Source: Ariolimax columbianus (taxonomy: Eukaryota > Mollusca > Gastropoda > Stylommatophora > Arionidae). From it: 64,000 nt of DNA. Of the stretch, positions 14,758 to 53,099 are shown piece by piece. The DNA lies in contig JAVGWX010000002.1 in the NCBI GenBank assembly GCA_036924085.1, positions 82,826,704-82,890,703 on the forward strand. Reading direction: 5' to 3'. Position numbers and translations under genes: made by a program. The notes below the pieces were generated by a model that worked only from the letters and a program-made list of their open reading frames with translations, did not search any database and was not told the DNA's origin. How positions within the stretch are numbered: the stretch's first letter is position 1; every line of letters begins with the position of its first letter.

Positions 14758-14790
14758 TTCTTCTTCTTCTTCTTCTTATTCTTCTTCTTA
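14758..14790 (-). repeat. (GAA)n 3' tail of chimera copy 1
   Basis: On the plus strand this is TTC repeats with one TTA interruption. It lies exactly between the target duplication and the conserved 3' UTR, so it is the 3' terminal repeat typical of I/R1-like LINEs that lack poly(A). Confidence 0.85.
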
Positions 14791-14869
14791 CGCTGTCAGG
14801 CGTCGACCTTTATTTTTTCGAAAAAAGCAGCGGTCATCCTGAGGCTGTCGACACTGCCATAGAGCTTGT

Positions 14870-17800
14870 CTAGTGTTGCCACTGGTGATGCAACATCTGC
14901 TCTCTCTGAACCTCGTATGTCGGGCAGTTTTGCAGCAAATGTTCAGCGGTCATTTTCCCGGTACCACACGTGTATTCGTCAATGCCACCTATCTGCAATT
15001 TGTTGAATAGGTGGTACCTCAGTCTATTGTGGCCAGTGCGAAATCTGAAAATCACGACCTGCTTTCTTCTGTTCAACTGGTTATATGCATCGTTTTTTGT
15101 GTAGCCAGTATGTTCTGTTTCCAATTTGGCCATGTATCTAGCTCTAATAAGCCGTTTTGACTCTTCGTATGTCACACTAGTGTCTGGTTGTGGCAGTCTT
15201 GCACCTTCTTTTGCCAGTCTGTCTGCCTCCTCGTTGCCGTGGATGTTGCAGTGAGATGGAACCCACTGCACCACTACCCTATTTGGTGCGGACTGCTGGC
15301 ATAGTTGACAGAGTACTGCTCTTAAATCATTAAGTTCAGTATTTTTCTGGCTTTTCAGTGCTGTGACTACGGCCAGAGCATCTGTAAGCAGGACTACGTG
15401 GCTTCCATTCCTTTTACCTGTCACAATTTGTCCCACTGCCGCCATCAGTGCCTCTGCCTCCGCTCTGAAATTGCTTGTGTATTTTCTAGTAGCGAATGAC
15501 AGTGTTATTTTTCTGCCATTTGGTAGGTTCAGTAATGCTCCTGCCCCTCCGTTCTGTATTGTATTTGTTACGGAACCGTCGGTGTATGCATGGGTCCAGT
15601 CCATGCTTCGGTAGTTTTCCGTTATGTAACTCGGGGTAGTATCTCTTCTTTCTTTTTCAGACTGGCAGTTTTTGTTTCCAATACCTGGTCAATTTTCTAC
15701 CACCTCTGGAAATATATGCTGCCTCCAGGTAGGTTTTCGTACAGTAGGGATGGGTTTTAGTGTTGTTAGTGCGTTCTTTGGGTCTTCGTGCATCTTAGCT
15801 TTGGCTATTTCTGCAATGTTTCTCCGCTTTAGTTTCCCATTTCCGAAATTGTTTAGTCTCTTGTGCATTGGATGAGTTTCTCTGATTGCTGCTGGGCTCT
15901 GCAGTTTTTTTCTGTCGGTCATGGATTGCAGTTTTGTAATCTTTTCAAGCTCTACAATTAGCGTTTACTTCATGCTAACTTTATCGAAGTTCGCCTTTGC
16001 TGCTGTTGTCCATGCCGCAATGCCATACTCGAGAACTGGTCTCACTCTTCCAGTGTACAGATTTTTTAGTATACTTTCGTCTGCTCCTCAGCTTGTGCCA
16101 ACAAGTTTCCTCATGATTGCCATTCTTTCTCTGGCTCTCATTCGGTTTCTCTCGATCTGACTTTTCCATGTCATGCGCCGATCAAATGTGACTCACAGGT
16201 AGTTTTGGTTGTCGTTTGGCTACAGGCATTTGCCGTTCAGACTTATTTTGGTGTTTTGGGGTTTCATTGATAGAGTAAATATTGTACATGTCGTTTTTTC
16301 CTCGTTTTTTTCGCCCACTCTTCCAGCGATGTTAGGGCCTGCTGCATCTGATTTCTTGCTATGGTGAGATTCTTTTCAGAGGTCCACATAACCAGATCGT
16401 CTGCAAACATTCAGCTATGGACTCTTCTTGGTATATTCTGTGTAATGTCATTTATATACACCAGGACGAGTGTGGGTGCCAGTACGCCCCCTTGGGGTAC
16501 TCCCTGCTCAAGTGTCACCTTTTTGCTCCTCTGCCCTTGTACTTGGACTCTGGCCGTTCTGTTTTTGAGGTAGTGATTGTACCTCTTGTACATTTTCCCA
16601 CAAACTTCACTTCTTCTTAGCTTGACTCTAAGTCCCTCTTTCCAGACTTTGTCAAATGCCTTTTCATGTCCACCCAAACCGCTACTGTGTATTTCTGTTC
16701 CTGGTAGGCATCCTCTATTTCCTGGGCTATGAGGATGACCTGATCCTTAGTGAATCTGTGCTGTCTAAAGCCTGCTTGCTGTTGAATTAGTATGCGTTTT
16801 TCTTTCAGATGCCACATCAGTCTGGTATTTATCATACGTTCCGTCAGTTTGCCGACACAGCTCAGTAGGCTGATAGGCCTGTATCCATTTGGATCTGTTT
16901 TGTCTTTTCCTTTCTTTGGTACTGGTACAAGTACTGCGTCTTTCCATGCCTGGAGTACAATACCCCTTTTCCAGCTTTGATTCAGGATTGATAGCAGTTT
17001 CCTCTTTGCTGTTTGGCCCAGCCCCATCAGCATTTCGTTAGTTTTCCCGTCTTTCCGGGAGATTTCCTTTTCTTTAAAGTTCTCATGGCTCTTCCATTTC
17101 ATTCATTGTTAATTTTGCAATCATATGCTCTTCTGGTGCCATATTGATGTTGTCGTGCCCCTTTTGCTCTTCACTAATGTATGTATGCCTATCTGCAGGG
17201 ACATCAATGTGGTTTGCTCTGGCATAGTGTTCAACAAAGGCGTTTGCGACTTTTTTTCCAGTGTGTTTTCGCCCTGTATGATGGTAATTTGTTTGTTTGA
17301 TGGAGTTTCGTCATTTATGGCTCTGACTAGCTTCCATAGTGTGTTCTCTTCTTTGTCTAGATTGAGGCTTTCTGTTTTGTTTTTCCAGCTTTCTCTTGCT
17401 GTTTGGTTTAGAGTGTATTTGTATTTCGCCGTGGCGGCTTTGAGGGCGATATTTGCCTCCATAGATTGTTCTCGCTCTGCCATGTTCCTAGCATATGTGA
17501 CTGCGTCTTCCGCTTTCTTCAAATCATCATTCCAATAGCGCTTATAATTTGTCCTTGCCTTTCTTGGGATGGTTTCAGTGGCAGCTTGCATTATTGCTTT
17601 GCTTAGGCTTTCCACCATGAGCTTCATATTGTTTTTCCGTGTGTTGATGGTTTCACACAGCCCATCTGTCAGGCTTGCAAACCTGTCCCAGTCGGCTCGT
17701 TTGTAATTCCAACGTGGGAGCGGTTTTATTTCCTGTGGGCCTACTTCCATATCAACTTCTAGCCTAATTGGCATGTGGTCGCTACCTGCCAATTGGTTTA

Positions 17801-18700
17801 GCACCTGACGGTCTATTTTGTGGTGAATGTCCACCGTGGAAAAGGCCAAGTGTCGAGTAGAGGTAGTATGCCATGTTCTAGAATAGAAGCTAGGGATATC
17901 CTCCGGCCTATTGATTAGACAGAGATTTGTGTCTATCTCCCAATCTTTCACTTCGTCACCTCTGCTGTCTGTGTCCGAGTATCCCCGTCTCTCCGAGTGG
18001 ATGTTGAAATCTCCAACTAATATGCAGTTGGAGTCTTTGACTTCCATACTCGAGAGCGACAGGTCTTTGTTTGTTGGTCCGTACAGGTTGAAGATGCGGA
18101 TCTTCGTCTCTTGAGCCATTATGTCATCTCGTACAATGTCTGCTTGTCCGGTGTGATTGACAGCTACCGCGCTACTCTGTATGCAGTTACGTATGAATAT
18201 CAGAACCCCTCCTTTGTGACCTTCTTTATCCAGACGGAAGGTCTGGTATCCTCTGATTGAGAATTTATGTTTGTTGTTGAGGTGCGTTTCTTGGATACAT
18301 GCCACATCAATCTTACCTTCATGCAACTGATGCGTTAGGGAAAACTTTTTGTTAATGAATCCCTCCGCATTTCACTGTAGTATTCTGAGGGTCTTGTATT
18401 TTTGGTTAATAGTTTTTGCTCATCACCATGTGCCTCGACTCCACAGCACATGGGTGGGTTACCAACAGTAGCAATGGTTGGGCCCCTTCGAGGCGCGAGA
18501 CCCGGCACTTTCACCGCCTGGCGGGACTCCACAGGATGAGCGCACGCTTTTTTCTATTAAGTCGTACTATCATCAGACAGCGATATACGTTGCACTGTGT
18601 TACATGTTCAGCCTGTGGCCCATTGCATCCGATTTCAATAGGCGTTTCTGTAGGGATGCCCTTCTTAGCTTTCGGCTGTCCCCAGCCTATCTGCAAGGCA
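14870..18700 (-). pseudogene. LINE ORF2 (endonuclease-RT-RNase H), decayed, copy 1
   Basis: Minus-strand protein in several frames. The endonuclease segment (18326-17121) contains ACIQETHLNNKH, VGDFNIHSER and AGSDHMPIRLE. The linker and RT palm (17102-16411) contain GYRPISLLSCVGKL, QAGFRQHRFTKDQ, EQGVPQGG and the residues leading to the catalytic box. The RNase H segment (15604-14870) contains HAYTDGSV, FRAEAEAL, LLTDAL and GNEEADRLAKEGA. It ends in CGTGKMTAEHLLQNCP. Frameshifts near 17110, 16640 and 15900-16400 and missing sections mean it cannot be translated through. Copy 2 shows the unbroken arrangement. Confidence 0.9.
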
Positions 18701-19535
18701 GCAGTTGTTTGTGATCAGAGTTGTCTCTCTTATGGAAGTTGTCTTACAGGACTATCGAGTCTTCACCACTCGTGTCTATAGGGTGCGGTGATGATATATG
18801 AGATATGATATATGATATGGACTTTGTACTATCCCGGAAGAGAGGCAGTCCAGTGTGTCTGTATCCCAAGATCGTCACGTCCTGCCAGAAACGTAGCATG
18901 TGCATGTGAGTGGTGTATCTCTTTGCTCCCTTTATTTTCTCGGCTTCTCTGCAGTGATGGTACGCCTAGCATTCCCCGCCACTAGAGTGATTGTCACAAT
19001 AGGGCAGATGTGCAATGTCCGCTGGCCTGCATCTCTTCTGCGTCCATTGGGATGACTGATAGCAGACAGAGGTAGAGAGCGAGGCAGGAGTGCATTTGAC
19101 CAGGGGACAAGCCTGGTAATGGCACGAAGATGTTGGTCGCCTGGTGTGCGGACATATCTCATGGTCAAGGGTTGCGTCTCAACAGTTCACAGTGAAGTGG
19201 CTGCTCTACTGCTTACGACACCCCGACCGAGAACTAAGTCTTCTACTAGTGGTTTCACACCTCATCGCCGTATACAGTGAATATCGGGCAGCTTCCCGCT
19301 CGCTTTGATCAGCGGACGGCACAGACCTCTTTATGTGGCTCGACTGTGTGGGGCTGGGGAGCGAGCTCCAGGTCCCGACCATATCGTAACCTCCCATCGC
19401 AGTGGTGCTGAGATTTTGGGCGGGATTCCGGCTTAGAGGCTTTTGTTGCCGTATTCCCTCAGATGGTAGCCTCGCCCTGTTAGCTTATCAGCCTAGCACG
19501 TTGACAAAATGTCTGCGACTAGCGATTTTTTTTAT
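18701..19535 (-). other. LINE 5' UTR, copy 1
   Basis: Aligns throughout with 34683-35580 of copy 2. Both copies share a minus-strand frame with blocks CRPADIAHLP and FWQDVTILGYRHTG, which could be the end of an ORF1, but I see no CCHC knuckle. The junction to 18S is abrupt near 19530-19536. The tandem repeat region of copy 2 is missing here. Confidence 0.65.
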
Positions 19536-20379
19536 CTCTAACGCCGCAATACGAATGCCCCCGTTTGTCCCTGTTAATCATTACCTCCAGTTCCGAAAAC
19601 CAACAAAATAGAACCGATGTCCTATTCCATTATTCCATGCACCATTATTCAGGCAGCAGAGACCTGCTTTGAACACTCTAATTTTTTTCAAAGTAAACGC
19701 GCCGGCCACCCGGGACGCTCAGCGAAGAGCACCCGCGGGAAAGAGCCGGCAGACGGTAGGGCAGGAGACAACGGGCAGTGAACCGGCGTGAGACGGACCG
19801 CCCGCCTGCGCCTGAGATCCAACTACGAGCTTCTTAACTGCAACAATTTTAATATACGCTATTGGAGCTGGAATTACCGCGGCTGCTGGCACCAGACTTG
19901 CCCTCCAATAGATCCTCGTTAAAGGGTTTAAAGTGTACTCATTCCAATTACGAGGCCTCGAATTTGTTACTTTTCGTCACTACCTCCCCGTGCCGGGAGT
20001 GGGTAAGTTCCGCGCCTGCTGCCTTCCTTGGATGTGGTAGCCATGGGGCAGACATTTGAAAGATGCGTCACCGGCACATGAGGCCATGCGATCAGCACAA
20101 AGTTATCCAGAGTCAGCAGTGGGGACGCCGCAACCCCGCGAGGGAAAACGACGATTGGTTTTGAACTAATAAAAGCGCTCTTTTCGCGATGGTCGGAGTT
20201 TGGTAAGCATGTATTAGCTCTAGAATTGCCATAGTTATCCAAGTAGGATCGTGTCATCTAAGGAACCTAGACTGATTTAATGAGCCATTCACGGTTTCAC
20301 TGTGAGACAGTGTGAACTTAGACATGCATGGCTTAATCTTTGAGACAAGCATATGACTACTGGCAGGATCAACCAGATA
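19536..20379 (-). pseudogene. 18S rRNA pseudogene, 5' part, copy 1
   Basis: The minus strand starts with the universal TATCTGGTTGATCCTGCCAG-type 18S 5' end near 20379. It runs through conserved blocks such as GCTAATACATGCTTACC, the CCGCGGTAATTCCAGCTCC region (about 19870-19890) and TGATTAACAGGGACAAACG (about 19560-19580), ending at GCGGCGTTAGAG. It is broken: about 15 bases are missing near 19966, where GAAAGAGTCCCGTATT is expected, and about 80-90 bases are missing near 20045. Only about 45 percent of 18S is present, so it is not a functional rRNA gene. Confidence 0.93.
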
Positions 20380-20920
20380 TCTGCCGGAGACGTACGAACC
20401 ACACATTGGTCGGCGGAGGACGGATGTGTAAAAAGCCTCACTAGGACGGCCGCAGGGACCGACTGACGGACGGACGGTTGTTCCATCCCTCACTCCGTCG
20501 ACCTAGGACCGCCTGACAGAGGCGATAAATTTCACTGTGACTGGAGTCGATTTTTGCCTGCCGGCCTGCCCTTCTCCAAATGGTTGGTCGGGCAAGGACA
20601 GGGCCTTTAGGCATGATTCCTGCTTTCCATTTGCCGGTCACCAGCTCTTTGCGAGAGAATGACCACGAGCGAGACGAACTGTCGAGGTCGACTATAAGCC
20701 TTCGAATAACCACCACTGACTGACAAAGTTCTCGATACGGTCCACAGTAACGCACCGTTGTCAGCGGTACGACGCCACAAATTTTGTCCCGCTAGATGGC
20801 CGGGGAAAGGCAGGCGAGCGTGTTAGGCAAGCCCGAGCTATCGCTCCGTCTGGTGGGACTGAGATCGTTGTACGAATACTGGATGAGAGTCAATCGCGGC
20901 GGCGAGAGACCAGCCCCAGA
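20380..20920 (-). other. Ribosomal 5' ETS-like leader, copy 1
   Basis: 541 GC-rich bases directly upstream of the 18S 5' end, colinear with 37487-38116 of copy 2 but with about 90 bases fewer near 20525. The 5'-most base is the T of TCTGGGG, identical to copy 2. Identification as ETS rests on position upstream of 18S and on conservation between the two copies. Confidence 0.75.
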
Positions 20921-20929
20921 TGGATGTGG
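20921..20929. repeat. Target-site duplication, chimera copy 1 (right)
   Basis: TGGATGTGG, identical to 14749-14757, directly beside the 5' end of copy 1. Confidence 0.9.
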
Positions 20930-21120
20930 ATCTGACATCTTCGGATGACGTGGCTGCAGATCAATCTGTATGGAGATGTGGCCTGAAGAGCAGCTTCAGG
21001 CTAGGCAAAAGTTGGCTCATGCAGCACAGGGAAGAGAAGAGACATCGCCGAGGGGAAAGGGAAGGCCAAAGACTCAGTAGAGAGCTGCTACTCCCAGGTC
21101 GCGTCAACCAGACATGATTC
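20921..21120 (+). pseudogene. LINE C-terminus, right part of interrupted element
   Basis: Continues the LINE at 13785-14757 after the 9-bp target duplication (20921-20929). It encodes DLTSSDDVAADQSVWRCGLK and MQHREEKRHRRGEREG, typical of the tail of this LINE family (SWEDLAADRxxWR), and stops at about 21117. The join proves that chimera copy 1 is a later insertion. Confidence 0.85.
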
Positions 21121-21704
21121 AAAAGGGGCTACTACATAAGTGATGTAAAAAGTAAATGTGGCAGAAGCTGCTGTAGTCAAAGTTGATATGGTAGCTAGGC
21201 AAATTTAATAGATGTGGTATTAATCAATGCGATGTTATGACATTTACACCCTTAAATTTTTTTAAACCAAACGAAGATAATTCAAGAATATTTTATAAAC
21301 CATATAAGACTAACAATGCACGATAGTTATCATTTGTGAAACGTTATGACGAAGCGTGTGACATGCCTCTGTATGTGTTTCATGTATATGCAAAAACAAT
21401 ATAAAACCTACCACCTAACACAACTTAGAACTTTCGAGGAGAAGAAGCAAAATACAAAAGGACAAATACATACAAGACTAATTGATGTTTTTCTGACATT
21501 GTTATGTTCTTCGTAAGAGTAACTGTATTATTATCCCATGTCTTTGGCTAAGTGTAAAAATACTGATTACTATAGTATTTTGTTGTGTAAACGTACATGC
21601 AATCAATCTTTAAAGAAGGAATGCCCATTTACAAATAACATAATCACTCTTACAAAAGTATATATAAATGTACAAACGCCTAATTGGTCTTACAAAATTC
21701 AAAT
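21121..21704. other. No recognisable feature
   Basis: AT-rich DNA with no repeat or coding structure that I recognise. Confidence 0.4.
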
Positions 21705-21880
21705 TTTCTTGTTCTTCCTGGTTAATTCTCAAACTCTCGCTACTAAGCCCTGAAAAAAGCTTTGCAAGTAGCAGGATGTTTTCCGGAGAACAGATGCGTT
21801 GTGTCGTAGTTCACAGCTTGACTGCGATATTTGCACCATTCGGTCCGACACATCTGACTTCAGCAGGCATTTGTTAGTAT
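21705..21880 (+). repeat. SINE-like dispersed repeat, copy B
   Basis: Shares with 1146-1375 the blocks GCTTTGCAAGTAGCAGGATG, GTTGTGTCGTAGTTCACAG and TTCGGTCCGACACATC, in the same order and spacing, at roughly 75-80 percent by eye. It has no coding capacity. Confidence 0.6.
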
Positions 21881-22164
21881 CGGGTTAGTCTTTCCTCTTC
21901 TATTTCTTCTTCTTAACCAGTCTGTCCTGTTGCAGCCTGTTATCTAGGATCACCGCGTGGAGGTGTAGAAGGGTCTTGGCAGCTCTGGTTCGCTGGTCCT
22001 GACGCTAGCAATCATCTATGGGTCGCTGACAGCTGCAGCTCATGCACTGCTTATCATCTTATAAATATACGAATGTCTAATCATTCGTTATCATCATCGT
22101 CATCAAGTGCAGTCTTTACATCGGAGGTTCATGGTAGTGGATGTCCAATTGTCTCTGTTCCGTG

Positions 22165-22490
22165 CCAGGTTGATACACACAAACTGTGTTCCGACCACAT
22201 CTTGACAATGTCTGTCTATCTGTACACTCAGTTAAACTGTGTCCCGACCACATATTGACAGTGTCTGTCTATCTGTACACTCAGTCAAACTGTGTCCCGA
22301 CCACATCTTGACAATGTCTGTCTATCTGTACACTCAGTCAAATGGTGTCCCGACCACATCTTGACAATGTCTGTCTATCTGTACACTCAGTCAAACTGTG
22401 TCCCGACCACATCTTGACTATGTCTATCTGTACACTCAGTCAAACTGTGTCCCGACCACATCATCTTGACTATGTCTGTCTATCTGTACA
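22165..22490 (+). repeat. 53-bp minisatellite, about 6 units
   Basis: Units contain TCTGTCTATCTGTACACTC, AGTCAAACTGTG and TCCCGACCACATCTTGACAA. Individual units are nearly identical. The last two are shortened or contain a small duplicated CATCAT, indicating recent unequal exchange or slippage. Confidence 0.92.
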
Positions 22491-22494
22491 TCTG

Positions 22495-24090
22495 CCGCCC
22501 TTTGGCTCTCTTGCCCTCTAATTTTCCAATTTCAAGATTCTATATTAAAAGACAAATAATTGACTACCTTATCTTTCAGTTGAATTGCAATCGTCGAAAA
22601 CATTAAAGGATATCAGTCAATCAACAACAAGACAGCTTCGTGATTACAGCTCCGTTTCGTATATCTTGCCACCAAAAATTGGGCAGCTCGTATTTCATCG
22701 CCATTGGACGCTTCATAAAGATCGACTAATTTGTTGCTGACTTTCGTGTTGATCTGACATTTATACAGTTTACTGACAAGCCTACACAGAGAGTATGTCT
22801 TGGAGAGCAAGATTCCACGGCAAGGTCAGTAGGACAGTCTAACAATCTACACCAGCTGTTTCATTCATACAATTCCAAAGTGTTATAAACTGTTAACTCT
22901 TTTTTGTTTCACTTCACCACTCTGCCTGTGTGTGTTGTTATTTCTGTTAGTTAGTAGTTAGTTAGTTAGTTAGCTGGCTAGTTAGCTACACAGTTAGTTT
23001 CCTTTGCACTTATGCCGTTGAGCGGCGCGGGTAGCTTAAGTTATCTGTCGTGCGCATCATCAATCATTGTGAGTCCGTGTCGTTTCACTAAAAACTCTGG
23101 CATCTATTCACCTGCCTTACGGACGCCCAACTGCCATGTAGCCATATCTACCAGTGTTGACAGTTGATGAGGTTTTATTCTCACGAAATGATCGAATCAG
23201 AATATTTTGTGCCTGGAAATGACGGATAAACACAAGACGTAATGCCGACTATACTACGAATGTCTTCGTTTCGCATTCTGTCTGTCCTGGTAATGCCCTT
23301 ATTTCACATGTCTAACCCTGTTGTCACACGTCTTGGGCAGGGACCATTTTTGGAACTGGTAACACAGAGTCGCCATAAAAATGCTGTTTTTATACTACTG
23401 CTTTGTTGCCAAACTAATGTGCTGGTGCCTACGCAGTGACGAGACCTGCTAAGTCATCGCAGAGACTTTGTGACACCTAGTCTCAATTTCTCTATTGAAA
23501 AAAATACTGTAAAAATACTTGGAATTCATGGTCTTGCTGAAGAGCAATATCATTTAAGCTTATGCTAAGTAGGCCAGGTTCTCTGCTATTGATATCGTTT
23601 TAATAAAATATTCAATGTTTTGTCCTTTTTGTTGCAAGACGATAAATTGCATTCACTTTATCTCAGAACACTTGCGACATCTTGTCCAGATAACCAAGTT
23701 ATACATAATAATATATAAGGCTCCATACAGACCGCAAAACGGCATCGGCTGCTTATATAAAGCCATGTGCTCCTCCTAACCCCAAAGCGGCATGAGGATC
23801 CTCATGACTTTGACATTGACCCCGCCCCGCGTCTTCCCCAGATACGTTATTTTTAACTTCGCTCCGCGTAGTTATCGATTTTATAATTAATAGGGGTAGC
23901 TTCGCTGAAGTTATTGGTTACATATTTTAAAAATTGTGTGAGTATTGTTTGTTTTAGGTGTGCGTAACCTGACTCAGTTTGATGTTTCATTGTCAAATAT
24001 AGGTGTGACGCAATATGTTTCATTCAAACAAGATTGGTTGACTTGTTTCATACCCCAGTCAAAGGAGTTTTTGTAATGGTGGATACGACA
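22495..24090. other. No recognisable feature
   Basis: About 1.6 kb with a short GTTAGTTAGTTAG run near 22950-22990 and otherwise no repeat or gene that I recognise. Confidence 0.4.
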
Positions 24091-24096
24091 AAACAC

Positions 24097-24938
24097 AGAC
24101 ATCAACAAAAACAACAGAATATTTTCTTTATGTAATAAAAATGTTTATTAATAACATCAAATTAATTTCAAATGGCTTGTTGTTCGTAACGGGGATAAGG
24201 GCAGCCCTGTGTTACCGATCTAGTTATTTGTATTGTGTCTGTAAGTGTGTGATTTATTATGAGTCTACTCTCTGGTTTGCTATTTATTACTTTGACCCAA
24301 TTTGTAAAATATTCTCCCACGTTGTTTTCTTTTAGTGTTTTGGGAAGGTATTCGTGTGATACCCTGTTAAAGTCTTTCTCGTGGTCTTTCCATAGTATTG
24401 CTGACTGTGTGTCTTTTTCATGTGTTTATTGGATATTGTCCCTTAAAAAATGTGCATGTTTACTGATACTTCTATTCTGTACAGTACATTGCTGGTCTTC
24501 ATGGACTTGGTGTTTCATAAGGGGTTTTGGTTTGAATGTTAACGCTTTTGTTAGTATTTTGTAGTCTGTATTTACTAAGGGGATAGGCCTATAATTTAAT
24601 TATTTACTTTAAGTTTTTTCTGTATCAGGTTTAGGTATTAATGTTATATAGGATTGATTCAAACTGTCTGGTAATTTCCCTATCTCGGACGCCTTTTGTA
24701 AGACGCTTAGTAGATGTGGACTCAACACGTGGAAAAAATGGAGTAGAATTCAGAGGTCAGGCCATCAGGGCCCGGAGTCTTGCCTTTTTTGGAGAGAATT
24801 TAGAGCGTTGGTAAGATTCTCTAATGTTAACTGTTCACTAAGGGTCCGACTGTCTTGCTCGTTCAAACATTTGGTGAAAGTCTCGTAGACAAATAAGACG
24901 AAACAAAAGATGATGGATATATACGGCTTTTATTTTTG
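24097..24938 (-). repeat. Long inverted repeat, outer left arm (carries LINE RT fragment)
   Basis: Reverse complement of 29347-30201 over about 850 bases with scattered differences. On the minus strand it encodes parts of a LINE reverse transcriptase like that at 29770-30138 (DHEKAFDRVS and SVRQGCP equivalents, here more decayed). Both arms end at the same outer base (AGACATCAAC). Confidence 0.85.
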
Positions 24939-25094
24939 GATCAATATCACAATGACTCGCAGGTAATTTCAAGCATCACTTATAACAATCGTCAACAGCG
25001 ACAACAGTATACACATGTATATATGTAACATTCAAGTATTAATATGAAGATGCCAAAATAAGACATCTCGAAGGTCATTATTCGTGTTGCCTTA

Positions 25095-26080: not shown

Positions 26081-26084
26081 TTTT

Positions 26085-26555
26085 TCCTTAACAAAAAGGT
26101 TTCCCTAACAAATCGCCTGTACGAAGGTAAGATAGACGTGGCATGCATCGAAGAAACGCACCTCAACGAAAACCACAGATTCTCAATCAGAGGAAACCAG
26201 ACCTTCCGTCTTGATAGAGAAGGTCCCAAAGGAGGGGTTCTGATACTGACACGTAACAGCATATCAAGTAGCGCAGTATGTGTAAATCACACCGGACAAG
26301 CAGAATGTGTAGGAGTCGATATAATGATACAAGAAACGAAAACCCGTACATTCAACCTGTATGGCCCACCCAACAAAGACCTGTCGCTTTCGAGTATGCA
26401 AATCAAGGACTCCAGCTGCGTAGTGGTTGGAGACTTCAACACTCACTCGGAGAGATGGGGATATTCATATACAGACAGCAGAGGGGATGAAGTTGAAAAC
26501 TGGGAGATAGACACAAATCTCTATCTTATCAATAGGCCGGACGACAGCATTTATA
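26085..26555 (+). pseudogene. LINE endonuclease fragment, same family as the chimera ORF2
   Basis: Encodes GKIDVACIEETHLNENHRFS, YQTFRLDREGHKGGVLIL-like sequence, VVGDFNTHSERWGYS and INRPDDS. It is colinear with residues 104-245 of the ORF2 at 30774-34682 and very similar to it. Both ends are abrupt (the catalytic SDH motif is not reached), so it is a truncated copy of that LINE without rDNA sequence attached. Confidence 0.9.
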
Positions 26556-26965: not shown

Positions 26966-26969
26966 CGGG

Positions 26970-26983
26970 GAGTAGGTAAAATG

Positions 26984-27024
<41 letters not shown>

Positions 27025-27540: not shown

Positions 27541-27544
27541 GGTT

Positions 27545-28740: not shown

Positions 28741-28874
28741 AATGAATTATTGCTCCAGGAAGCGCTCTGTAAAGAAATACGTTGTTCAAAATATTAATTT
28801 TTTAATTTCTTTTTAAATCACAGTAAAAATAGAAAATGAACTTACAAAAAAAAGCTAAAAAAAACGGATTTTCT

Positions 28875-28942
28875 TAAACCCGGGATTCAACCAGGGACCT
28901 TTAGATCTTCAGTCTAACGCTCTCTGAGCTATTTCGGACGCC
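28875..28942 (-). pseudogene. tRNA-Phe(GAA)-like sequence, degenerate
   Basis: The minus strand matches metazoan tRNA-Phe through the D stem (AATAGCTCAG), anticodon arm (GACTGAAGATCTAAAGG, anticodon GAA) and most of the T arm (CCCTGGTTGAATCCCGGG). The D loop lacks about five bases, the B box is altered and the 3' acceptor strand (TTTAAG) no longer pairs with the 5' strand (TCCGAAA). It is therefore a pseudogene or the head of a tRNA-derived repeat. It lies within the loop of the inverted repeat, downstream of the polymerase fragment. Confidence 0.8.
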
Positions 28943-29156
28943 GAAAGTTAAAACGAAAGATACAACCACTTTTTAAGTTATTTTTAGCCAATCTATAATA
29001 TTGTTACAGCTTTCATAGGTGTGGTATTTTATATATGCACAGATGGTAATGGTATCACACTAAAGTGAACAAGACATAGTTACAATACGTTGACCTTTAT
29101 CACGGTATTAGAGGATAACTTGCTAACAGCACTAACAGAAAGACAAATATGAAATC

Positions 29157-29346
29157 TTTGCGTCGAAATGCTTTTATTTTCGTATTTTATTACTTTATAC
29201 AAATAGTAAAGTAGAAAATAAGAAGACTAACTAAAATAAAGAGTAAGACACACAGTAGATTCATAAAATAGCCCGACTAATCCCCCACTTTAAAAATTGA
29301 TACCTTATATATATATATATATATATTATACATTTTTACCTACTAC
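29157..29346. repeat. Long inverted repeat, inner right arm
   Basis: Mirror of 26970-27170, including its own shorter (TA)n run at about 29306-29328. It is contiguous with the outer right arm starting at 29347. Confidence 0.85.
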
Positions 29347-30201
29347 AACAAAAATAAAAGCGTATATATCCACCATCATCTTTTGTTTTGTCTTATTTGT
29401 CCTCGAGACCTTCACCAAATGTTTGAACGAGCAAGACAGTCGGACCCTTAGTGAACAGTTAACATTAGAGAATCTTACCAACGCTCTAAATTCTCTCCAA
29501 AAAAAGCAAGAGACCGTGCCCTGATGACCTGACCTCTGAATTCTACTCCATTTTTTCCACGTGTTGAGTCCACATCTACTCAGCGTCTTACAAAAGGCGT
29601 CCGAGATAGGGAAATTACCAGACAGTTTGAATCAATTCTACATAACATTAATACCTAAACCTGATACATAAAAAACCCAAGTAAATAATTAAATTATAGG
29701 CCTATCCCCTTAGTAAATACAGACTACAAAATACTAACAAAAGCGTAAACATTCAAACCAAAACCCTTTATGAAACACCTAGTCCATGAAGACCAGCAAT
29801 GTAGTGTACAGAAGAGAAATATCAGTAAACATGCATATTTTTTAAGGGACACTATCCAATACACACATGAAAAAGACACACAGTCAGCGATACTATCGAT
29901 AGACCACGAGAAAGCCTTTGACAGGGTCTCACACGAATACCTGCACAAAACACTAAAAGAAAACAACATGGGAGAATATTTTACAAATTGGTTCAAAGTA
30001 ATACATAGCAAACCAGAGAGTAGACTCATAATAAATCACACACTTACAGACACAATACAAATAACTAGATCGGTAAGACAGGGCTGCCCTTATCCCCGTT
30101 ACTATATACGAACAACAAATCATTTGAAATTAATTTGATGTTGTTATTAATAAACATTTTTATTACAAAGAGAAAATATTCTGTTGTCTTTGTTGATGTC
30201 T
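29347..30201 (+). repeat. Long inverted repeat, outer right arm with LINE RT fragment
   Basis: Mirror of 24097-24938. On the plus strand it carries the better-preserved LINE reverse transcriptase fragment: LTNALNSLQKK, FYITLIPKPDT, then HEKAFDRVSHEYLHKTLKEN, WFKVIHSKPESRLIIN and RSVRQGCP (29770-30090). This resembles L1/Tx1-type LINEs (FDRVSHEYLFKTL, VRQGCPLSP). The catalytic FADD box is not reached because the repeat ends. The arm abuts a CR1-like LINE 3' end at 30202. Confidence 0.85.
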
Positions 30202-30740
30202 AGAAGACCCTGCAGAGTCTGTATACAACCAGTTACATTTACATCACCTTGCTCTAAAAGCTATGCTCTTCCAGTTTATTCTTAAATGCATTAACTGTCC
30301 CTGCCTCCACTACCTCCTGTGGCATTGCATTCCAAGCAGACACCACTCTCTGACTATAAAAATATTTCTAATATCTAATTAAATTCTTAAATCTCTCTTT
30401 AGTCAGCTTGTAGCTATGCCCTCTTGTTATTGTGGGTGGCTGCATTTTAAAAAACGTGTTATAGTCTAATCTATCTATTCCTCTGATCATCTTATCAACC
30501 TGTATTAAGTCACCACGGATTCTTCTCTCTTCGAGACACTGTAGGCCGGTTTTTATGAGTCTTTCCTCATAACTGTAATTCTGGAATCCCACTATCATCT
30601 TTGTCGCTTTTTGTTGTATTCTTTCCAGCATGTTTATATCCCCTCTATGATAAAGACTCCACATCTGTACACAGTACTCCAATCTAGGTCTAACTAAAGC
30701 CTTATACTGTTTGACTTATCACTTCTTTGCTCCTATGTTT
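30202..30740 (-). pseudogene. CR1-like LINE 3' part, left half of interrupted element
   Basis: The minus strand encodes the ORF2 C-terminus MEYCVQMWSLYHRGDINMLE, RIQQKATKMIVG, SYEERLIKTGLQCLEERRIR, GDLIQVDKMIRGIDRLDYN and RGHSYKLTKERF, followed by a 3' UTR with GACTCTGCAG. Going 5' on the minus strand, the coding sequence is cut at the target duplication 30728-30740 and resumes at 38117 (RNIKHRS then KEVI). It is thus the host into which chimera copy 2 inserted. Confidence 0.87.
30728..30740. repeat. Target-site duplication, chimera copy 2 (left)
   Basis: TGCTCCTATGTTT, repeated exactly at 38117-38129. The CR1-like LINE at 48300-48340 carries the uninterrupted version (CTCCTATGTTTAATATTTC). 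Confidence 0.92.
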
Positions 30741-30763
30741 CTTCTTCTTCTTCTTCTTCTTCT
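30741..30763 (-). repeat. (GAA)n 3' tail of chimera copy 2
   Basis: TTC repeats on the plus strand between the target duplication and the conserved 3' UTR, corresponding to 14758-14790 in copy 1. Confidence 0.9.
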
Positions 30764-30773
30764 GCGTACACAG

Positions 30774-33700
30774 TCAGACAGTAACCATTATTTTCTCGAA
30801 AAAAGCGGCGGTCATCCTGAGACTCTCGCCACTACCATAGAGCTTGTCTTGCAATTCCACTGGCAATGGCCACATCTGCTCTCTCTGATCCTCGTATTTC
30901 GGGCAGTTCTGCAGCAGATGTTCAGTGGTCATTTTACCAGTACCGCACGGGCATTCGTCGGTACACCCTATCTTCAATGTGTTGAATAGGTGGTACCTCA
31001 GTCTGTTGTGGCCATTGCGAAGTCTGAAGACAACGACCTGCTCTCTTCGGTTCAACTGGTAATAGGCATCGTTTTTGGTGTAACCAGTATGTTCGGTTTC
31101 CCATTTGGACATGTATCTGGCTTTGATAAGCCGTTTTGACTCTTCGTACGTCATACTGGTATCTGTTTGTGGTAGCCTTGCACCTTCTTTTGCCAGTCTG
31201 TCTGCCTCCTCGTTGCCTTGGATGTTGCAGTGTGACGGAACCCACTGTACCACTACCCTTTTTGGTGCGGACTGCTGGCACAGTTTGCAGAGTGCTGCTC
31301 TTAAGTCATTAAGCTCAGTGTTTTTCTGGCTTTTTAGCGCTGTGACTACTTCGAGAGCATCTGTCAGCAGGACTATATGGCTCTCATTTTCACTGTGTGT
31401 TACCATTTCTTCCACTGCCGCCCTCAGTGCCTCTGCCTCTGCTCTGAAATTACTTGTGTACTTACCAGTAGCGAATGACAGTGTTATTTTTCTGCCATTT
31501 GGTAGGTTCAGGAATGCTCCTGCCCCTCCGTTCTGTGTAGTGTTTGTTACAGAACCGTCGGTGTATGCATGGGTCCAGTCCATGCTTGGGTAGCTTTTCG
31601 TTATGAAGCTTAGGGTAATGTCTCTCCTTTCTTTTTCACTCTGGCAGTTTTTGTTTGCAATACCTGGTATATTTTCTACCACCTCTGGAAATATATCCTG
31701 CCTCCAAGTAGGTTTTCGTACAGTAGTGATGGGTTTTGGTGTTGTTAGTGCGTTTATGGGATCTTCGTGCATCTTTGCTTTGGCTATTTCTGCAAAGTTT
31801 CTCCGCTTTAGTTTCCCATTTCCCAAATTGTTTAGTCTCTGGTACATTGGATGGTCCGTCAGTCTTCTGAGTTTCTCTGACTGCAGCTGGGCTCTGCAGT
31901 CTCTTCTATCGGTCATGGATTGCAGTTTTGTAATCTTTTCAAGTTCTACAATTGGCGTTGACTTCATGCCACCTGTTATAATTCTCATGGCTTGGTTTTG
32001 AAGTTTGTTAACTTTATCGAAGTTCGCCTTCGCTGCGGTTGTCCATGCCGCAATGCCATACTCGAGAACTGGTCTCACTCTTCCAGTGTACAGTTTCTTT
32101 AGTATGCCTTCGTCTGCTCCCCAGCTTGTGCCAGCAAGTTTCCTCATGATCGCCATTCTTTCTCTGGCTTTCATTCGGTTTCTCTCAATCTGACTTTTCC
32201 ATGTCATGCGCCGATCAAATGTGACTCCCAGATAGGTTGGGTTGTCGTTTGGCTGCAGGATTTTGCCATTTAGCCTTAATTTGGTACTTTGGGGTTTTAA
32301 TGAGAGCGAGAATATTGTGCACGTGGTTTTCTCCTCGTTTATTTTGACCAGCCATGAGTTCGCCCATTCTTCCAGCGATGTTAGGGCCGTCTGCATCCGA
32401 TTTCTTGCTATGGTGAGATTCTTTTCAGAGGTCCACATAGCCAGATCGTCTGCAAACATTGAGCTATGGACTCTTCTTGGTATATTCTCTGTAATATCGT
32501 TTATATATACCAGGAAGAGTGTGGGTGACAATACTCCCCCTTGGGGTACTCCCTGCTCGAGTGTCACCTTTTTGCTCATCTGCCCTTATACTTGGACTCT
32601 GGCCGTTCTTTGTTTGAGGTAGTGGTTGATCCACTTGTACATCTTCCCACAGACATCACTTCTTCTTAGCTTGACTCTAAGTCCATCCTTCCAGACTTTG
32701 TCAAATGCCTTTTCCAGATCCACCCAAACAGCTACTGTGTGTTGCTGTGCCTGGTAGGCATCTTCTATCTCCTGGGCTATGAGGATGACCTGGTCCTCAG
32801 TGGATCTGTGCTGTCTAAAGCCGGCTTGCTGTGGAATTAGTATTCGTTTTTCTTCCAGATGCCACATCAGTCTGGTGTTTATCATCCGTTCCATCAGCTT
32901 GCCAACACAGCTCAGTAGGCTTATGGGCCTGTATCCATTTGGATCTGTTTTGTCCTTCCCTGTTTTTGGTACTGGTACCAGTATTGCATCTTTCCATGCC
33001 TGGGGTACAATACCCCTTTTCCAGCTTTGGTTCAGGACTGATAGTAGTTTCTTCTTCGCTGTTTGGCCCAGCCCCATCAGCATTTCGTTTGTTATCCCGT
33101 CTTTTCCGGGAGATTTCCTTTTCTTTAGTGTACTCATAGCCTCTTCCATTTCGCGCATTGTTAGTTTGGCCATCATGTGCTCTTCGGGAGCCGTATTTAT
33201 GTTTTCGTGTCCCTTTAGCTCTTCGCTAATGTCTGTATGCTTATCTGCAGGGACCTCGATGTGGTTTGCTCTGCCATAGTGATCGACAAAGGCGTTTGCG
33301 GCTTTCTTACCTGTGATCAAGTTCTCGCCCTGCTTGATAGTAATTTGTTTATTTGACGGGGTTTCGTCGTTCATGGCTCTGACTAGCTTCCATAGCTTGT
33401 TCCCGTCTTTGTCCAGGTTCAGACTTTCCGTTTTATTTTTCCAACTTTCTCTTGCTGTTTGCTTGAGAGTGTGTTTGTACTTCGCCGCGGCGGCTTTGAG
33501 GGCGATGTTTGCCTCCATGGATTTTTCTCGTTCTGTCATGTTCCTAGCATTTGTTACTGCATCTTCCACTTTCTGTAACTCATCATTCCAGTAGGGCTTA
33601 TAGTTTTTCCTAGCTCCTCTTGGGATGGTTTCAGTGGCGGCTTGCATTATTGCCTTGCTTAGGCTCTCCACCATGGGCTTCATTTTGGTGTTTCGTGTGT

Positions 33701-34682
33701 TGATGGTTTCACACAGCCCATCTGTCAGGATTGCAAATCTGTCCCAGTCGGCTCGTTTGTAATTCCAACGTGGGAGCGGTTTTGTTTCCTGTAGGCTTAC
33801 TTCCATGTCAATGGTTAGCCTGATCGGCCTGTGGTCGCTACCTGCCAGTTGGTTCAGCACCTGGCGGTCTATTTTATAGTGTATGTCCTGTGTGGAGAAG
33901 GCCAAATCTGGAGTCGAGGTGGTATGCCATGTTCTTGAATAGAAGCTAGGGCTATCCTCCGGCCTATTGATTAGGGAGAGATTTGCATCTATCTCCCAAT
34001 CTTCCACTTCGTCACCTCTACTGTCTGTGTCAGAGTATCCCCATCTCTCCGAGTGGCTGTTGAAATCTCCAACTACTATGCAGTTGGAGTCTCTGACCTC
34101 CATACTCGAGAGCGATAGGTCTCTGTTTGGTGGTCCGTACAGATTGAAAATGCGGAGTTTCGTCTCTTGAGCCATTATGTCAACTCCTACAATTTCTGCT
34201 TGTCCGGTGTGATTGACAGGTACCGCGCTACTCGGTATGCTATTTCTGGTCAGTATCAGGACCCCTCCTTTGTGGCCTTCTCTATCTAGACGGAAGGTCT
34301 GGTATCCTCTGATTGAGAATTTATGGTTATTGTTGAGGTGCGTTTCCTGGATACATGCCACGTCAATCTTACCTTCATGCAGGTGGTGTGTTAGGGAAAG
34401 TTTTTTGTTAATGACTCCCTCCGCATTCCACTGTAGTATTTTGAGGGTCTTGAGGTTTTGGCCAATAGACGTTACCCCATAGCCATGTGCCTTGACTCCA
34501 CGACACATGGGTGGGTGACCACCAGTAGTCAAGGGTGGGCCCCTTCGAGGCGTGAGGCCCGGCGCTATCGCTGCCTGGCGGGTCTCCTCAGGATGAGCGC
34601 CATACGTTTTTCGAATAGGTTGTGCTGCCATCATACTGTGATTTACGTTGCATTGTTTTGTTAGGCTTGCGGCCCCGTGCAT
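30774..34682 (-). pseudogene. LINE ORF2: APE endonuclease, reverse transcriptase, RNase H; one stop codon
   Basis: One continuous frame of about 1300 codons, broken only by TAA at 32586-32588; the related fragment at 52570 has CAA (Gln) there. Domains in order: APE-type endonuclease about residues 80-290 (LKILQWNAEGV, IQETHLN at 111-117, VVGDFNSHSE at 203-212, GSDHRPI at 281-287); linker; reverse transcriptase about 500-800 (SPGKDGITNEML, PNGYRPISLLSCVGKLMER, QAGFRQHRSTEDQ, VDLEKAFDKVW, QGVPQGGVLSPT, FADDLAMW near 743); RNase H about 1037-1169 with acidic residues in YTDGSV, FRAEAEAL, LLTDAL and NEEADRLAKEGA; C-terminal CPCGTGKMTTEHLLQNCP Cys/His motif. The architecture fits the I/Nimb/R1-like superfamily. 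A start upstream of 34682 cannot be excluded. The enzyme would nick target DNA, copy the RNA and degrade it. Confidence 0.95.
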
Positions 34683-35800
34683 CCGATTTCAACAGGCGTT
34701 TCTGTAGGGATGCCCTCCTTAGCCTTTGGCTGTCCCCAGCCTATCTGCAAGGCAGCAGTTGTTTACGATCAGAGTTTTCTCTCCTATGGAAGTTGTCTTA
34801 CCAGACTTTCGAGTCTTCACTACTCGTGTCTATAGGGTGCAATGATGATGATATATGAGATGGACTGGTTTACCCGGAAGAGAAGCAGTCCAGTGTGTCT
34901 GTATCCCAGGATCGTCACGTCCTGCCAGAAACGTAGCATTTGCATGTGAGTGGGGTATCTCTTTTTCCCTTTGTTTTCTTGGCTTCTATGCAGGGATGGT
35001 ACGCCTAGCATTCCCCGCCACCTGGGGTGTTGACACAGTGGGGCAGGTGTGCAATGTCCGCTGGTCTGCATCTCTTCTGCGTCCAGCATGATAGTTATGG
35101 CTGATAACGTACATAGGTAGATATCGTAGCCGGAGTGCATTTCGCCAGAGGACAAGCCTGGTAATGTCACAGAGATGTTGATCGCCTGGTGTGCGGACAA
35201 CTCTCATGGTCAGTGGTTGAGTCTTGACAGTTCACAGTGAGGTGGCTGCTCTACTGTTTTCGACACCCCGACCAGGTTCTAAGTCTTTGGTTGGTGTTTT
35301 TTCGCACCCCATCGCCGTATAGGGTGAGTATCAAGCAGTTGTCCGCCCGCTTTGATTGGCGGGCGGCAAGAACCTCTTACTGTGGCTCTACCTGATAGGG
35401 CTGGGGCGCAAGCCCCAGGTCCCGAGCATGTAGGAGCCTCCCATTGCAGTGGTGCTGAGATTTTGGGCGGGATTTCGGCTTACAAGGGTTCGGCCGTAAT
35501 CCCCCACATGGTAGCCTCGCGCCCTTGGCTTATCAGCCTGGTACGTGAACCAAAGTGTCTGCGGCTCCTCTCGATTTGAGCTGGTTTTCCGTAGCAACGC
35601 CCTGTCATTTGTAGGGTAAAACTGACCTGTCTTCAGATGATCTATTTCCAGCACCCGTTCACTATTTGGTCAGACGAATTTATTGAGGGCTTTTGTTTGT
35701 CAATGACCAGGTATTTGAGATCTGCGGTTTCTGCGGAGTTAAACACGATTTCCGTAGCGTTCTTTCATTTGAGTGTTTGAGAGCTGACTTGTCATCCGTG
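34683..35800 (-). other. LINE 5' UTR, copy 2
   Basis: Colinear with 18701-19535 of copy 1. A minus-strand frame conserved in both copies contains CRPADIAHLPHC and MLRFWQDVTILGYRHTG, but no CCHC knuckle or other ORF1 hallmark was recognised. So an ORF1 is either absent, very short or decayed. Confidence 0.6.
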
Positions 35801-36270
35801 AGTCTAATACCAGCGTACGTTCATTATTAGACCCAAACGGCAGTGCTCTCGATTTGTCAGTTGTTCTACAGTATTGGCGTGTTCAGTCAAATTAAGCCGC
35901 AGGTTCCACACCTGGTGGTGCCCTTCCGTCAATTCCCTTAGCGAGACAATCAAGAGGGTAGCCCCAAAATTTTCGAGGGTCTAATTCCAGCACATGTTCT
36001 CTATTAGACCCCACGAAGGTGTACTTTTTGATAGTCATTCTGCATTATTGGCGTGGTAAGTTAACTTAGGTCTCTGGCTCCACTCCTGATAGTGCTCTTC
36101 CGTCAATTCCTTTATCAAACACTGGATGCAGACAAAACCGAGCCACAGGGGGCATAACCCCAGATTTCTGGGGGTCTAAGTCCAGCACCAGTTCCATATT
36201 AGGCCCCAGAAGAGTGGTCTCGGCATGTCAATCATTTCAGTGTTGGCCGTGTTGAGTCAAATTTAGCCGC

Positions 36271-36319
<49 letters not shown>

Positions 36320-36340
36320 TTTGCAACCATACTTCCCCCG
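35800..36340 (-). repeat. 5'-UTR tandem repeats that include an 18S segment
   Basis: Units of about 174-196 bases. Each contains about 60 bases of 18S (minus strand GGAATTGACGGAAGGGCACC, GGAGTGGAGCCTGCGGC, AATTTGACTCAACACG). Each also has about 120 bases of non-ribosomal sequence with GGTCTAATxxxGAACxxGTGCTGG. The GGAATTGACGG block appears at about 36296-36306 (true 18S), 36100-36110 and 35926-35936; a further partial non-18S unit lies near 35643-35700. The 18S part of the middle unit is most diverged. Confidence 0.88.
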
Positions 36341-37486
36341 GAACCAAAACACTTTGGTTTCCCGGAAGCTGCCCGCAGAGTCATCGAAGCAACTCCTGCG
36401 GATCGCTAGTCGGCATCGTTTATGGTCAGAACTACGACGGTATCTGATCGTCTTCGCGCCTCTGACTTTCGTTCTTGATTAATGAAAACATTCTTGACAA
36501 ATGCTTTCGCAGTAGCTCGTCTTGCGGCGATCCAAGAATTTCACCTCTAACGCCGCAATACGAATGCCCCCGTTTGTCCCTGTTAATCATTACCTCCAGT
36601 TCCGAAAACCAACAAAATAGAACCGAGGTCCTATTCCATTATTCCATGCACCATTATTCAGGCAGCCGAGGCCTGCTTTGAACACTCTAATTTTTTCAAA
36701 GTAAACGCGCCGGCCACCCAGGACGCTCAGCGAAGAGCACCCGTGGGAGAGAGCCGGCAGACGGTAGGGCAGGAGACAACGAGCAGTGAACCGGCGCGAG
36801 CCGGACCGCCCGCCTGCGCCTGAGATCCAACTACGAGCTTTTTAACTGCAACAACTTTAATATACGCTATTGGAGCTGGAATTACCGCGGCTGCTGGCAC
36901 CAGACTTGCCCTCCAATAGATCCTCGTTAAAGGGTTTAAAGTGTACTCATTCCAATTACGGGGCCTCGAAAGAGTCCCGTATTGTTATTTTTCGTCACTA
37001 CCTCCCCGTGCCGGGAGTGGGTAAGTTGCGCGCCTGCTGCCTTCCTTGGATGTGGTAGCCGTTTCTCATGCTCCCTCTCCGGAATCGAACCCTGATTCCC
37101 CGTTACCCGTTACAAACATGGTAGGCATGTCACGTACCATCGACATTTGATAGGGCAGACATTTGAAAGATGCGTCGCCGGCACATGAGGCCATGCGATC
37201 AGCACAAAGTTATCCAGAGTCACCAGTGGGGACGCCGCAACCCCGCGAGGGGAAACGACGATTGGTTTTGAACTAATAAAAGCGCTCTTTCCGCGAGGGT
37301 CGGAGCTTGGTAAGCATGTATTAGCTCTAGAATTGCCACAGTTATCCAAGTAGGATCGTGTCATCTAAGGAACCTCGACTGATTTAATGAGCCATTCGCG
37401 GTTTCACCGTGAGACAGTGTGAACTTAGACATGCATGGCTTAATCTTTGAGACAAGCATATGACTACTGGCAGGATCAACCAGATA
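36247..37486 (-). pseudogene. 18S rRNA 5' two-thirds (truncated), copy 2
   Basis: About 1240 bases of minus-strand 18S from the 5' end (TATCTGGTTGATCCTGCCAG, near 37486) to ACTCAACACGG at 36247, where LINE 5'-UTR sequence begins. Conserved landmarks include TTTGAAAAAATTAGAGTG, CCGCGGTAATTCCAGCTCC, AATTTCTTGGATCGCCGC-like and CTTAAAGGAATTGACGG. No large internal deletion is seen, unlike copy 1. The 3' third is absent and the segment sits in a retroelement, so it is not a working rRNA gene. It may still report the host 18S sequence at the time of insertion. Confidence 0.95.
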
Positions 37487-38116
37487 TCTGTCGGAGACGT
37501 ACGTACAGCACACACCGGTCGGCGGAGGAAGGGTGTGTAAAAAGCCTCGCTGGGACGACGGCCGCAGGGACCGACTGACGGGACGGACGGTTTGTTCCAC
37601 CCGTCCCTCACTCCGTCGACCTAGGACCGCCTGACAGGGGCCTCCCACACGCACCAGACGACCGACCGACCGGGCTCGCTCGAGGAGGGATGGCAGCGCT
37701 CTGTGCAGAACGGATCCCAACGACCTCGGCGACGAATTTCACTGGGACTAGAGACACAATTTGGCCTGCCCTTCTTCTCCGTAGAGAGAACGCAGGGCCT
37801 CGAGGCAACGATTCCTGCTTTCCATTTGCCGGTCACAAGCTCTTTGCGAGAGTCGGACCACCAGCGAGACGTACTGTCGAGCTCTGCTATAAGCCTTAGA
37901 TAAATCACCACGGACGGACCACGTTTCCTGATACGGACCAGACTAGCGCACCTCGGTGGAGGAGCCACTACCACAAACCGCACCCAATTCGCACTACGGG
38001 GAAAGGCAGGCGAGCGTTTTCCGCAAGCCCGCGCTATCGCTCCGCCTGGCGGGACTGAGATCGCTTTACGAACACTGGTTGAAATTGAGTCGCCGCGGCG
38101 AGACAACTACCCCAGA
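37487..38116 (-). other. Ribosomal 5' ETS-like leader, copy 2
   Basis: 630 GC-rich bases upstream of the 18S 5' end, aligning to 20380-20920 of copy 1, with one extra block of about 90 bases (37635-37730). It ends at 38116 with the element's 5' nucleotide. Because two independent insertions share this end, the base may mark the RNA polymerase I start site; this is inference. Confidence 0.75.
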
Positions 38117-53088: not shown

Positions 53089-53099
53089 AAAACAACAGG

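Follow-up and report, generated by a model that had tools for sequence, protein, structure and literature searches.

How does a LINE (long interspersed nuclear element) come to carry the start of the ribosomal RNA (rRNA) transcript at its head, and to carry it at unrelated places in a genome? The question is raised by a 64,000-nt stretch of the Ariolimax columbianus genome (the window; contig JAVGWX010000002.1, positions 82,826,704 to 82,890,703), in which two composite units, here called copy 1 and copy 2, join a 5' external transcribed spacer (ETS) and the 5' part of 18S rRNA to a LINE. We consider it probable, at about 85%, that a LINE resident in the rRNA genes (rDNA) lives on untrimmed RNA polymerase I (Pol I) read-through and makes insertions elsewhere that are not site-specific. 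The case is built on what we demonstrate here: the structure of the units, their ends and target-site duplications (TSDs), their numbers, one joint found in an rDNA array and its identity to dispersed copies, and a signature of constraint in the leader.

Structure and ends of the two composite units

Both units lie on the minus strand and have their parts in the same order: 5' ETS, 18S 5' part (identified by Rfam match), a 5' region of rRNA-derived and other sequence, open reading frame 2 (ORF2), and a (GAA)n tail. Copy 2, the younger, occupies 30741..38116 (7,376 nt) as delimited by its ends and TSDs, its age being judged from comparison of its leader with extant rDNA. Its ETS (37487..38116, aligned to the rDNA of locus L047) begins at the presumed Pol I start ([A]TCTGGGGTAG) and is followed by 18S from nt 1 to about nt 1240 (36247..37486; Rfam RF01960), terminating in ..ACTCAACACGG, where the rDNA alignment stops. 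A diverged, largely rRNA-derived part (35199..36246) and the rest of the 5' untranslated region (UTR; 34683..35198) lead to ORF2 (30774..34682), and the tail occupies 30741..30763. Copy 1, the older, occupies 14758..20920 (6,163 nt), with its ETS, which likewise begins at the presumed transcript start, at 20380..20920, an internally deleted 18S part reaching about nt 940 at 19535..20379, then an abrupt switch to 28S-like sequence, a broken ORF2 at 14870..18371, and a tail at 14758..14789.

Each unit has its own exact TSD, immediately adjoining the (GAA)n tail on one side and the 5' end on the other. That of copy 1 is 9 nt long (CCACATCCA on the minus strand; 3' copy 14749..14757, 5' copy 20921..20929), and that of copy 2 is 13 nt long (AAACATAGGAGCA; 30728..30740 and 38117..38129). 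The unit limits and distinct duplications of the original prediction, which had been made from the window itself, are exact to the base. No similarity was found between the 2-kb flanks of copy 1 and copy 2, and two uninterrupted target paralogues preserve copy 2's site in its empty state, one at locus L025 (89%, 1144 bp) and one in the window at 48909-47850 (83%, 1098 bp). Insertion into unrelated targets, as had been claimed, has the dissimilar flanks and the empty site of copy 2 behind it, but no paralogue spanning the insertion site of copy 1 was found.

Genome-wide dispersal from a common start

The original prediction spoke of two insertions; both are real, but the family amounts to thousands. 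In the 2.29-Gb assembly (401 contigs), a 24-nt pattern for the joint between 18S and element had 5,922 matches with at most 1 mismatch, evenly divided between strands (2,946 + 2,976), and a pattern for the ETS start had 5,081 with rDNA included (2,549 + 2,532; at most 1 mismatch), while reversed control patterns for the joint and ETS start had 0 matches each. The search for further copies in ETS-18S-LINE order that had been proposed is answered by these counts. A 22-nt pattern combining promoter and start had only 127 matches with at most 2 mismatches (89 + 38), and of the 100 matches listed, 98 fell on small contigs and the other 2 on chromosomes. This large excess of ETS starts over promoter-plus-start sites was counted in favor of dispersal without the promoter. 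The two exact promoter-plus-start sites on chromosomes (G000:C10:58993499 and G000:C12:62836866) are orphan rDNA units or assembly joins.

Start and joint are also linked in position. Among the exact matches listed within the first 47.4 Mb of C1 (85 ETS starts and 100 joints), 51 ETS starts pair with 51 joints, on the same strand and at most 2.6 kb downstream, with 0 pairs on the wrong side or strand. The spacing is 1,831-1,879 bp in 44 of the 51 pairs, and 1,858 bp in rDNA. Three joints were followed in the order of the listing: two start with ATCTGGGGTAG where predicted, and the third differs there. In 19 of 20 retrieved loci the leader is followed by the element 5' region; in the remaining one, L015, the leader breaks off within 18S and is followed by LINE sequence in inverted orientation.

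These 20 loci, the highest-ranking ones when copy 1 was used as an ETS-18S query, and the two window copies make up a sample of 22 units, which is biased to older, copy-1-like copies having a 5' end. TSDs of 9-14 nt beside a GAA-like tail were found in 14 of the 22 units and are unrelated to each other, bearing out the tabulation that the original prediction had called for, whereas a control pairing of flanks from different loci gave 6 in 462. The 5' end falls within 10 nt of that of copy 2 in 19 of the 22. Among the 14 TSD-defined units, 12 begin [A]TCTGGGG, the rDNA sequence right after ..GAATGTATATT: 8 with the A and 4 in which the A may belong to the TSD, while a few bases are different in L009 and L012. 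We presume the A before TCTGGGG to be the Pol I +1 position, because the units have this 5' end in common and because in locus L034 the second internal transcribed spacer (ITS2) is joined exactly there.

The joint between 18S and the element

Beyond 18S ..ACTCAACACGG (about nt 1240; 1239 by script numbering), copy 2 continues with CCAACACTG.., a diverged 18S-like stretch, and then 28S-like sequence as far as the 28S 3' terminus. About 1.05 kb of what had been called the LINE 5' UTR is largely a diverged 28S 3' end and tandem 18S and 28S pieces, so that this 5' region does precede ORF2 as claimed but is mostly rRNA-derived. On the large-subunit (LSU) rRNA model the 28S 3' end extends over about 3005-3399 in both window copies and about 2940-3401 in L009. 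The 63-nt 18S piece preceding the joint recurs twice downstream in copy 2 (35878-35940 and 36052-36114, minus strand; the 28S-like pieces were judged by eye), and these two inner pieces are ~90% and ~83% identical to extant 18S, compared with 99% for the leader. This suggests that the newest ribosomal layer is outermost and that older layers lie inside. The longest ATG frame from joint to ORF2 in copy 2 is 106 amino acids. No Rfam ribozyme family matched in the window (gathering scores) or in the 5' region, including the rest of the 5' UTR (E up to 0.01), though a diverged ribozyme could escape such a search.

The joint is present in 20 of the 22 units, some with 1-2 base variants, and absent from L015 and copy 1. 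In copy 1 the 18S ends near nt 940 and meets 28S-like sequence elsewhere; the shared ETS-18S-LINE order that had been described is true of both copies, but copy 1 is without the canonical ACTCAACACGG joint.

The original prediction had proposed a parental LINE joined to 18S after ACTCAACACGG, and we found the joint in an rDNA array, although its 3' end is unread (N). There the promoter (100% over 231 bp) is followed by ACTCAACACGG running directly into CCAACACTG.., the intervening 1.7 kb being outside the read part. Counted from the promoter query's upstream end, the joint lies at 2,038 bp, and in 3 normal units of the same contig ACTCAACACGG runs on into GAAAACTCACC at the same distance. The 291 bp of the resident copy are identical (100%, full length) to the best 40 of 1,405 candidates; these 40 scored sites all lie on C1-C9 and do not include the array place itself. 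Residence at a fixed site in the rRNA genes is represented by this one array joint, with N on its 3' side, and by the same 18S joint in 5,922 matches. Integration is not restricted to rDNA, as copies are dispersed on chromosomes with unrelated TSDs.

Six further array units have an uninterrupted 18S, but they were found with an 18S 3' query, and hence no resident fraction can be derived from them; of 20 short stretches read at the joint position of array units, 19 are N and one is normal. Unit spacing in the C67 array is usually ~12.15 kb, with spacings of 11.18, 16.3, 17.0, and 18.55 kb also present and one unit on the opposite strand, and other insertions are possible there. A copy on C42 was considered as an rDNA resident because that contig is small, and rejected, being a dispersed insertion in satellite-like sequence that starts at the rRNA start.

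An alternative origin of the leader is in reverse transcription itself: the LINE RNA would start inside the element, and the reverse transcriptase (RT) would switch at its 18S-like 5' end to pre-rRNA and copy on to +1. Template switching does seem to occur, with ITS2 joined exactly to ETS +1 in L034 (a locus that ends inside 18S, with the LINE part outside it), ITS2 joined to the element in L030, and a jump from 28S 5' to 28S 3' sequence in L031. Leaders acquired afresh by switching would likewise explain the constraint on 18S described below, and pooled 18S divergence per 103-nt bin is 1.3-3.0% in the 5' half and 2.5-5.2% in the 3' half. However, the joint is at the identical base in thousands of copies, the leader keeps its likeness to rDNA as far as ACACGG (2.7% in the final bin ahead of the joint, no worse than the 2.5-5.2% of the preceding four), and the identical joint stands in the array downstream of a promoter. 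We give switching in situ little chance on this evidence and reject it as the main route.

Loci L031/L032, L030, and L034 are dispersed fragments of ITS1-5.8S-ITS2-28S joined to the LINE or to ETS +1. On C5, C12, and C14 an 18S 3' match and a 5.8S match lie ~0.6 kb apart in rRNA order.

Divergence of the leader from extant rDNA

Compared with an extant rDNA unit (L047 and L043), the leader of copy 2 differs by substitutions at 1.0% of the ETS and 0.2% of 18S up to the joint, with seven rDNA positions missing besides, and the similarity to rDNA stops at the joint. In copy 1 the corresponding substitutions are 13.9% in the ETS and 3.1% in 18S. For 19 old copies (excluding L034, copy 2, and, as duplicates, L010 and L011), we separated private change from change common with at least 3 other copies. 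Private change per copy is 1.79% in 18S and 2.02% in the ETS, and this equality looks like neutral decay after insertion. Common change is 0.16% in 18S versus 9.8% in the ETS, ~60 times more, which indicates that 18S was under constraint in the source while the source ETS evolved. A separate count on 20 copies with CpG sites removed agrees, with 55 ETS versus 2 18S substitutions common to at least 8 copies. Judged by this pattern, the source of the leader appears to be functional, homogenised rDNA. The leaders track the rDNA of their time, which points to continuing output from rDNA and not to one escape.

These figures also bear on a self-replicating composite, in which the ribosomal leader would have been fixed long ago and dispersed from promoterless chromosomal copies or from one orphan locus. 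Such a composite would account for one joint across 5,922 matches and 20 of 22 units, and for the sequence 3' of the joint evolving as element sequence. It predicts, however, that shared 18S change should be as fast as that of the ETS, and the observed shared 18S change is far too low; a leader propagated outside rDNA would lack the contrast between private and shared change. ETS starts also far exceed promoters, and the young leader is, in substitutions, still 99.0% (ETS) and 99.8% (18S) identical to extant rDNA. A frozen leader is in our view very improbable and was rejected.

Segmental duplication, or an assembly artefact of rDNA-LINE junctions, retains next to no probability. It is true that rDNA arrays are hard to assemble and that the flanks upstream of L010, L011, and L012 are alike (identities of 100% and 91%), so that these three are probably one composite insertion duplicated later, inside C2 and onto C21. 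But duplication as the source of the two window copies is rejected, as the original prediction had argued, on their dissimilar flanks and distinct TSDs, with the empty site of copy 2 in paralogues and the even division of the 5,922 joints between strands also against it.

The LINE and its short partner

The element is a LINE of the APE endonuclease/RNase H type that shows the marks of target-primed insertion. Two open pieces of copy 2 matched, in this order, Pfam PF14529/PF03372 (endonuclease), PF00078 (RT), and PF00075 (RNase H). The endonuclease-RT-RNase H ORF2 of the original prediction accordingly has its domains, but it is intact in neither copy: copy 2 has one in-frame stop (32586-32588), and copy 1 is more broken, with open pieces at 17121-18371, 16617-17102, and 14870-15688 and Pfam matches to endonuclease and RNase H pieces. 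The relatives of ORF2 with species names are gastropod, the best among the matches listed being from Arion vulgaris (60%). For the last 1,062 bp of copy 2, all 40 scored matches (the best 40 of 2,288 candidates) are 98-100% identical, which marks the LINE as young.

TSD-bounded units fall into two length classes. The long class has 5 units of 6.2-7.4 kb (both window copies, L011, L012, and L028). The short class has 9 of the 22 units, at 2.8-3.6 kb, which keep the leader and the 5' region roughly as far as the start of the ORF, followed by ~34 nt and (GAA)n; their 3' end resembles that of the LINE, as judged by eye only.

Further fragments, apparently of the same LINE family, lie in the window on the plus strand at 26084-26544 and 52569-53114 (the endonuclease fragment recognized as a DNA repeat and the RT fragment by translation by eye).

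A proposed route from rDNA to dispersed copies

In the reading that we prefer, the LINE would occupy the 18S gene in a subset of rDNA units, with its joint at about nt 1240, and the ordinary rDNA promoter would drive Pol I transcription through it. The transcript would consist of the 5' ETS, the 5' two thirds of 18S, the older 28S and 18S pieces, ORF2, and (GAA)n, with its 5' end untrimmed. The LINE machinery, its ORF2 protein binding this transcript, would copy it into many unrelated targets by target-primed reverse transcription, creating duplications of 9-14 nt. The dispersed copies begin at +1 and are therefore promoterless, which would make them mostly dead offspring. Each generation would arise anew from the source in rDNA, where concerted evolution keeps its ETS and 18S up to date, and the internally deleted partner (2.8-3.6 kb, with the same leader and the same kind of tail) would spread likewise.

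Independent target-primed insertion of a chimeric pre-rRNA-LINE RNA, the central idea of the original prediction, is supported by the TSDs, by a 5' end that the units share at the presumed rRNA start, by the array joint, and by the contrast between 18S and ETS. The prediction had further supposed an 18S-inserted LINE that escaped with its ribosomal leader; the read-through source of that proposal stands, but the output from rDNA appears to be continuing, and the leader also holds old 28S and 18S pieces.

Several observations weigh against read-through from rDNA or fit it poorly. Among the 22 units, 2 have a TSD of only 7-8 nt and 6 have no qualifying TSD (L010 and L015 are interrupted or rearranged; L013, L017, L019, and L026 are unexplained), and L013, L020, and L026 align only from 31-51 nt inside the start of copy 2. 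On C1, 34 of the 85 ETS starts have no exact joint among the matches listed. The old copies used for the divergence figures were chosen by the copy 1 query, and the shared ETS change is partly that of one era. The in-array element is known from one copy and 291 bp, with N on the 3' side, and a pattern search for the simplest 3' junction of an rDNA-resident element gave 0 matches. The resident unit measures 18.55 kb from promoter to promoter, to which a 12.15-kb unit plus a 5.5-kb LINE fits poorly; an 11.18-kb short unit plus the 7.37-kb whole composite does match, with lengths that are uncertain owing to N stretches in the array. Lastly, we infer Pol I transcription, the lack of trimming, the integration machinery, and how the element gets into rDNA from DNA sequence.

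A more tentative extension of read-through from rDNA, possible but on balance doubtful, is a cycle of two phases, in which a few Pol I-driven rDNA residents give rise to thousands of promoterless offspring and the ~1.9-kb leader, which in young copies is almost unchanged from rDNA, serves as a homology arm for recombining back and regaining a promoter. The rDNA promoter would then be the sole promoter, the returning agent would be the offspring or offspring cDNA, and the stacked older 18S and 28S pieces would be fossils of earlier re-entries.

Other features of the window

A large inverted repeat lies at 24186-24916 and 29373-30102, its arms 94-96% complementary and ~4.5-5 kb apart, the second arm being within the 3' flank of copy 2. 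A tRNA-Phe (GAA) gene at 28871-28938 (minus strand) was called by both ARAGORN and Rfam, and a 53-bp tandem repeat of ~6 copies (22180-22490) lies upstream of copy 1.

Significance and comparison with known systems

If about 5,000 rRNA-headed insertions were indeed seeded by an rDNA-resident LINE, Pol I read-through could be the main force behind retrotransposition to dispersed sites. Their leaders would be dated snapshots of rDNA, in which change after insertion is separable from the evolution of the rDNA spacer, so that concerted evolution could be traced over time. In this lineage, rRNA-headed copies would also contaminate mapping and barcoding based on 18S or ETS, as well as rDNA copy counts.

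Among the matches listed in the open-licence PubMed Central literature (titles and abstract starts; subscription papers and Repbase lie outside this scope), none describes a dispersed LINE retaining an ETS-18S leader from +1. What appears to be new is a probably rDNA-resident LINE with non-specific, leader-retaining dispersal; rDNA-resident LINEs as such are already known. The best studied of these is R2, which is site-specific and whose endonuclease is restriction-like, with no APE domain. The element described here has an APE-type endonuclease and is not of the R2 clade. R7 and elements of the R1 clade are APE-type LINEs in rRNA genes (R7 in 18S) and are site-specific in rDNA; the present element has the same endonuclease type and would, as a probable resident of 18S, resemble them in location too, but differs in its dispersed copies with ETS-18S leaders.

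R8 of Hydra is an R2-lineage element inserted in 18S rRNA genes, and the relevant passages of PMC5035012, where it is described, state that no R2 lineage having lost target specificity is known. Insertion in the 18S rRNA gene would be common to both, but here it goes with an APE-type endonuclease, RNase H, and thousands of dispersed copies. R2 depends on co-transcription with rRNA, and a 5' ribozyme cuts it out of the 28S co-transcript, according to the account of R2 in PMC3414825. Co-transcription, which we infer here, would be a likeness to R2 as that account presents it, while the whole leader from +1 is kept here and no ribozyme family matched. The short internally deleted elements (SIDEs), namely the R2 and R1 SIDEs and Persaeus, are described in the pertinent sections of PMC3414825 and PMC6740152 as short, with LINE end sequences and without an ORF. 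Our short partner is likewise ORF-less, with a LINE-like 3' end by eye, but differs from SIDEs so described in its 1.9-kb ribosomal leader and its dispersal with TSDs. SINE28, a short interspersed nuclear element (SINE) built on the 28S 3' end in the summary given by PMC8010984, also brings that end into a retroelement, though here the 28S end lies inside the LINE 5' region, behind ETS-18S. Finally, in template-jump chimeras (R2-snU12 and L1-U6), as outlined in PMC3414825, the RT moves over at the 5' end to a second RNA. Loci L030, L031, and L034 look like these chimeras as outlined there, but the main leader meets the element at a single, fixed base of 18S, and its joint stands in an rDNA array.

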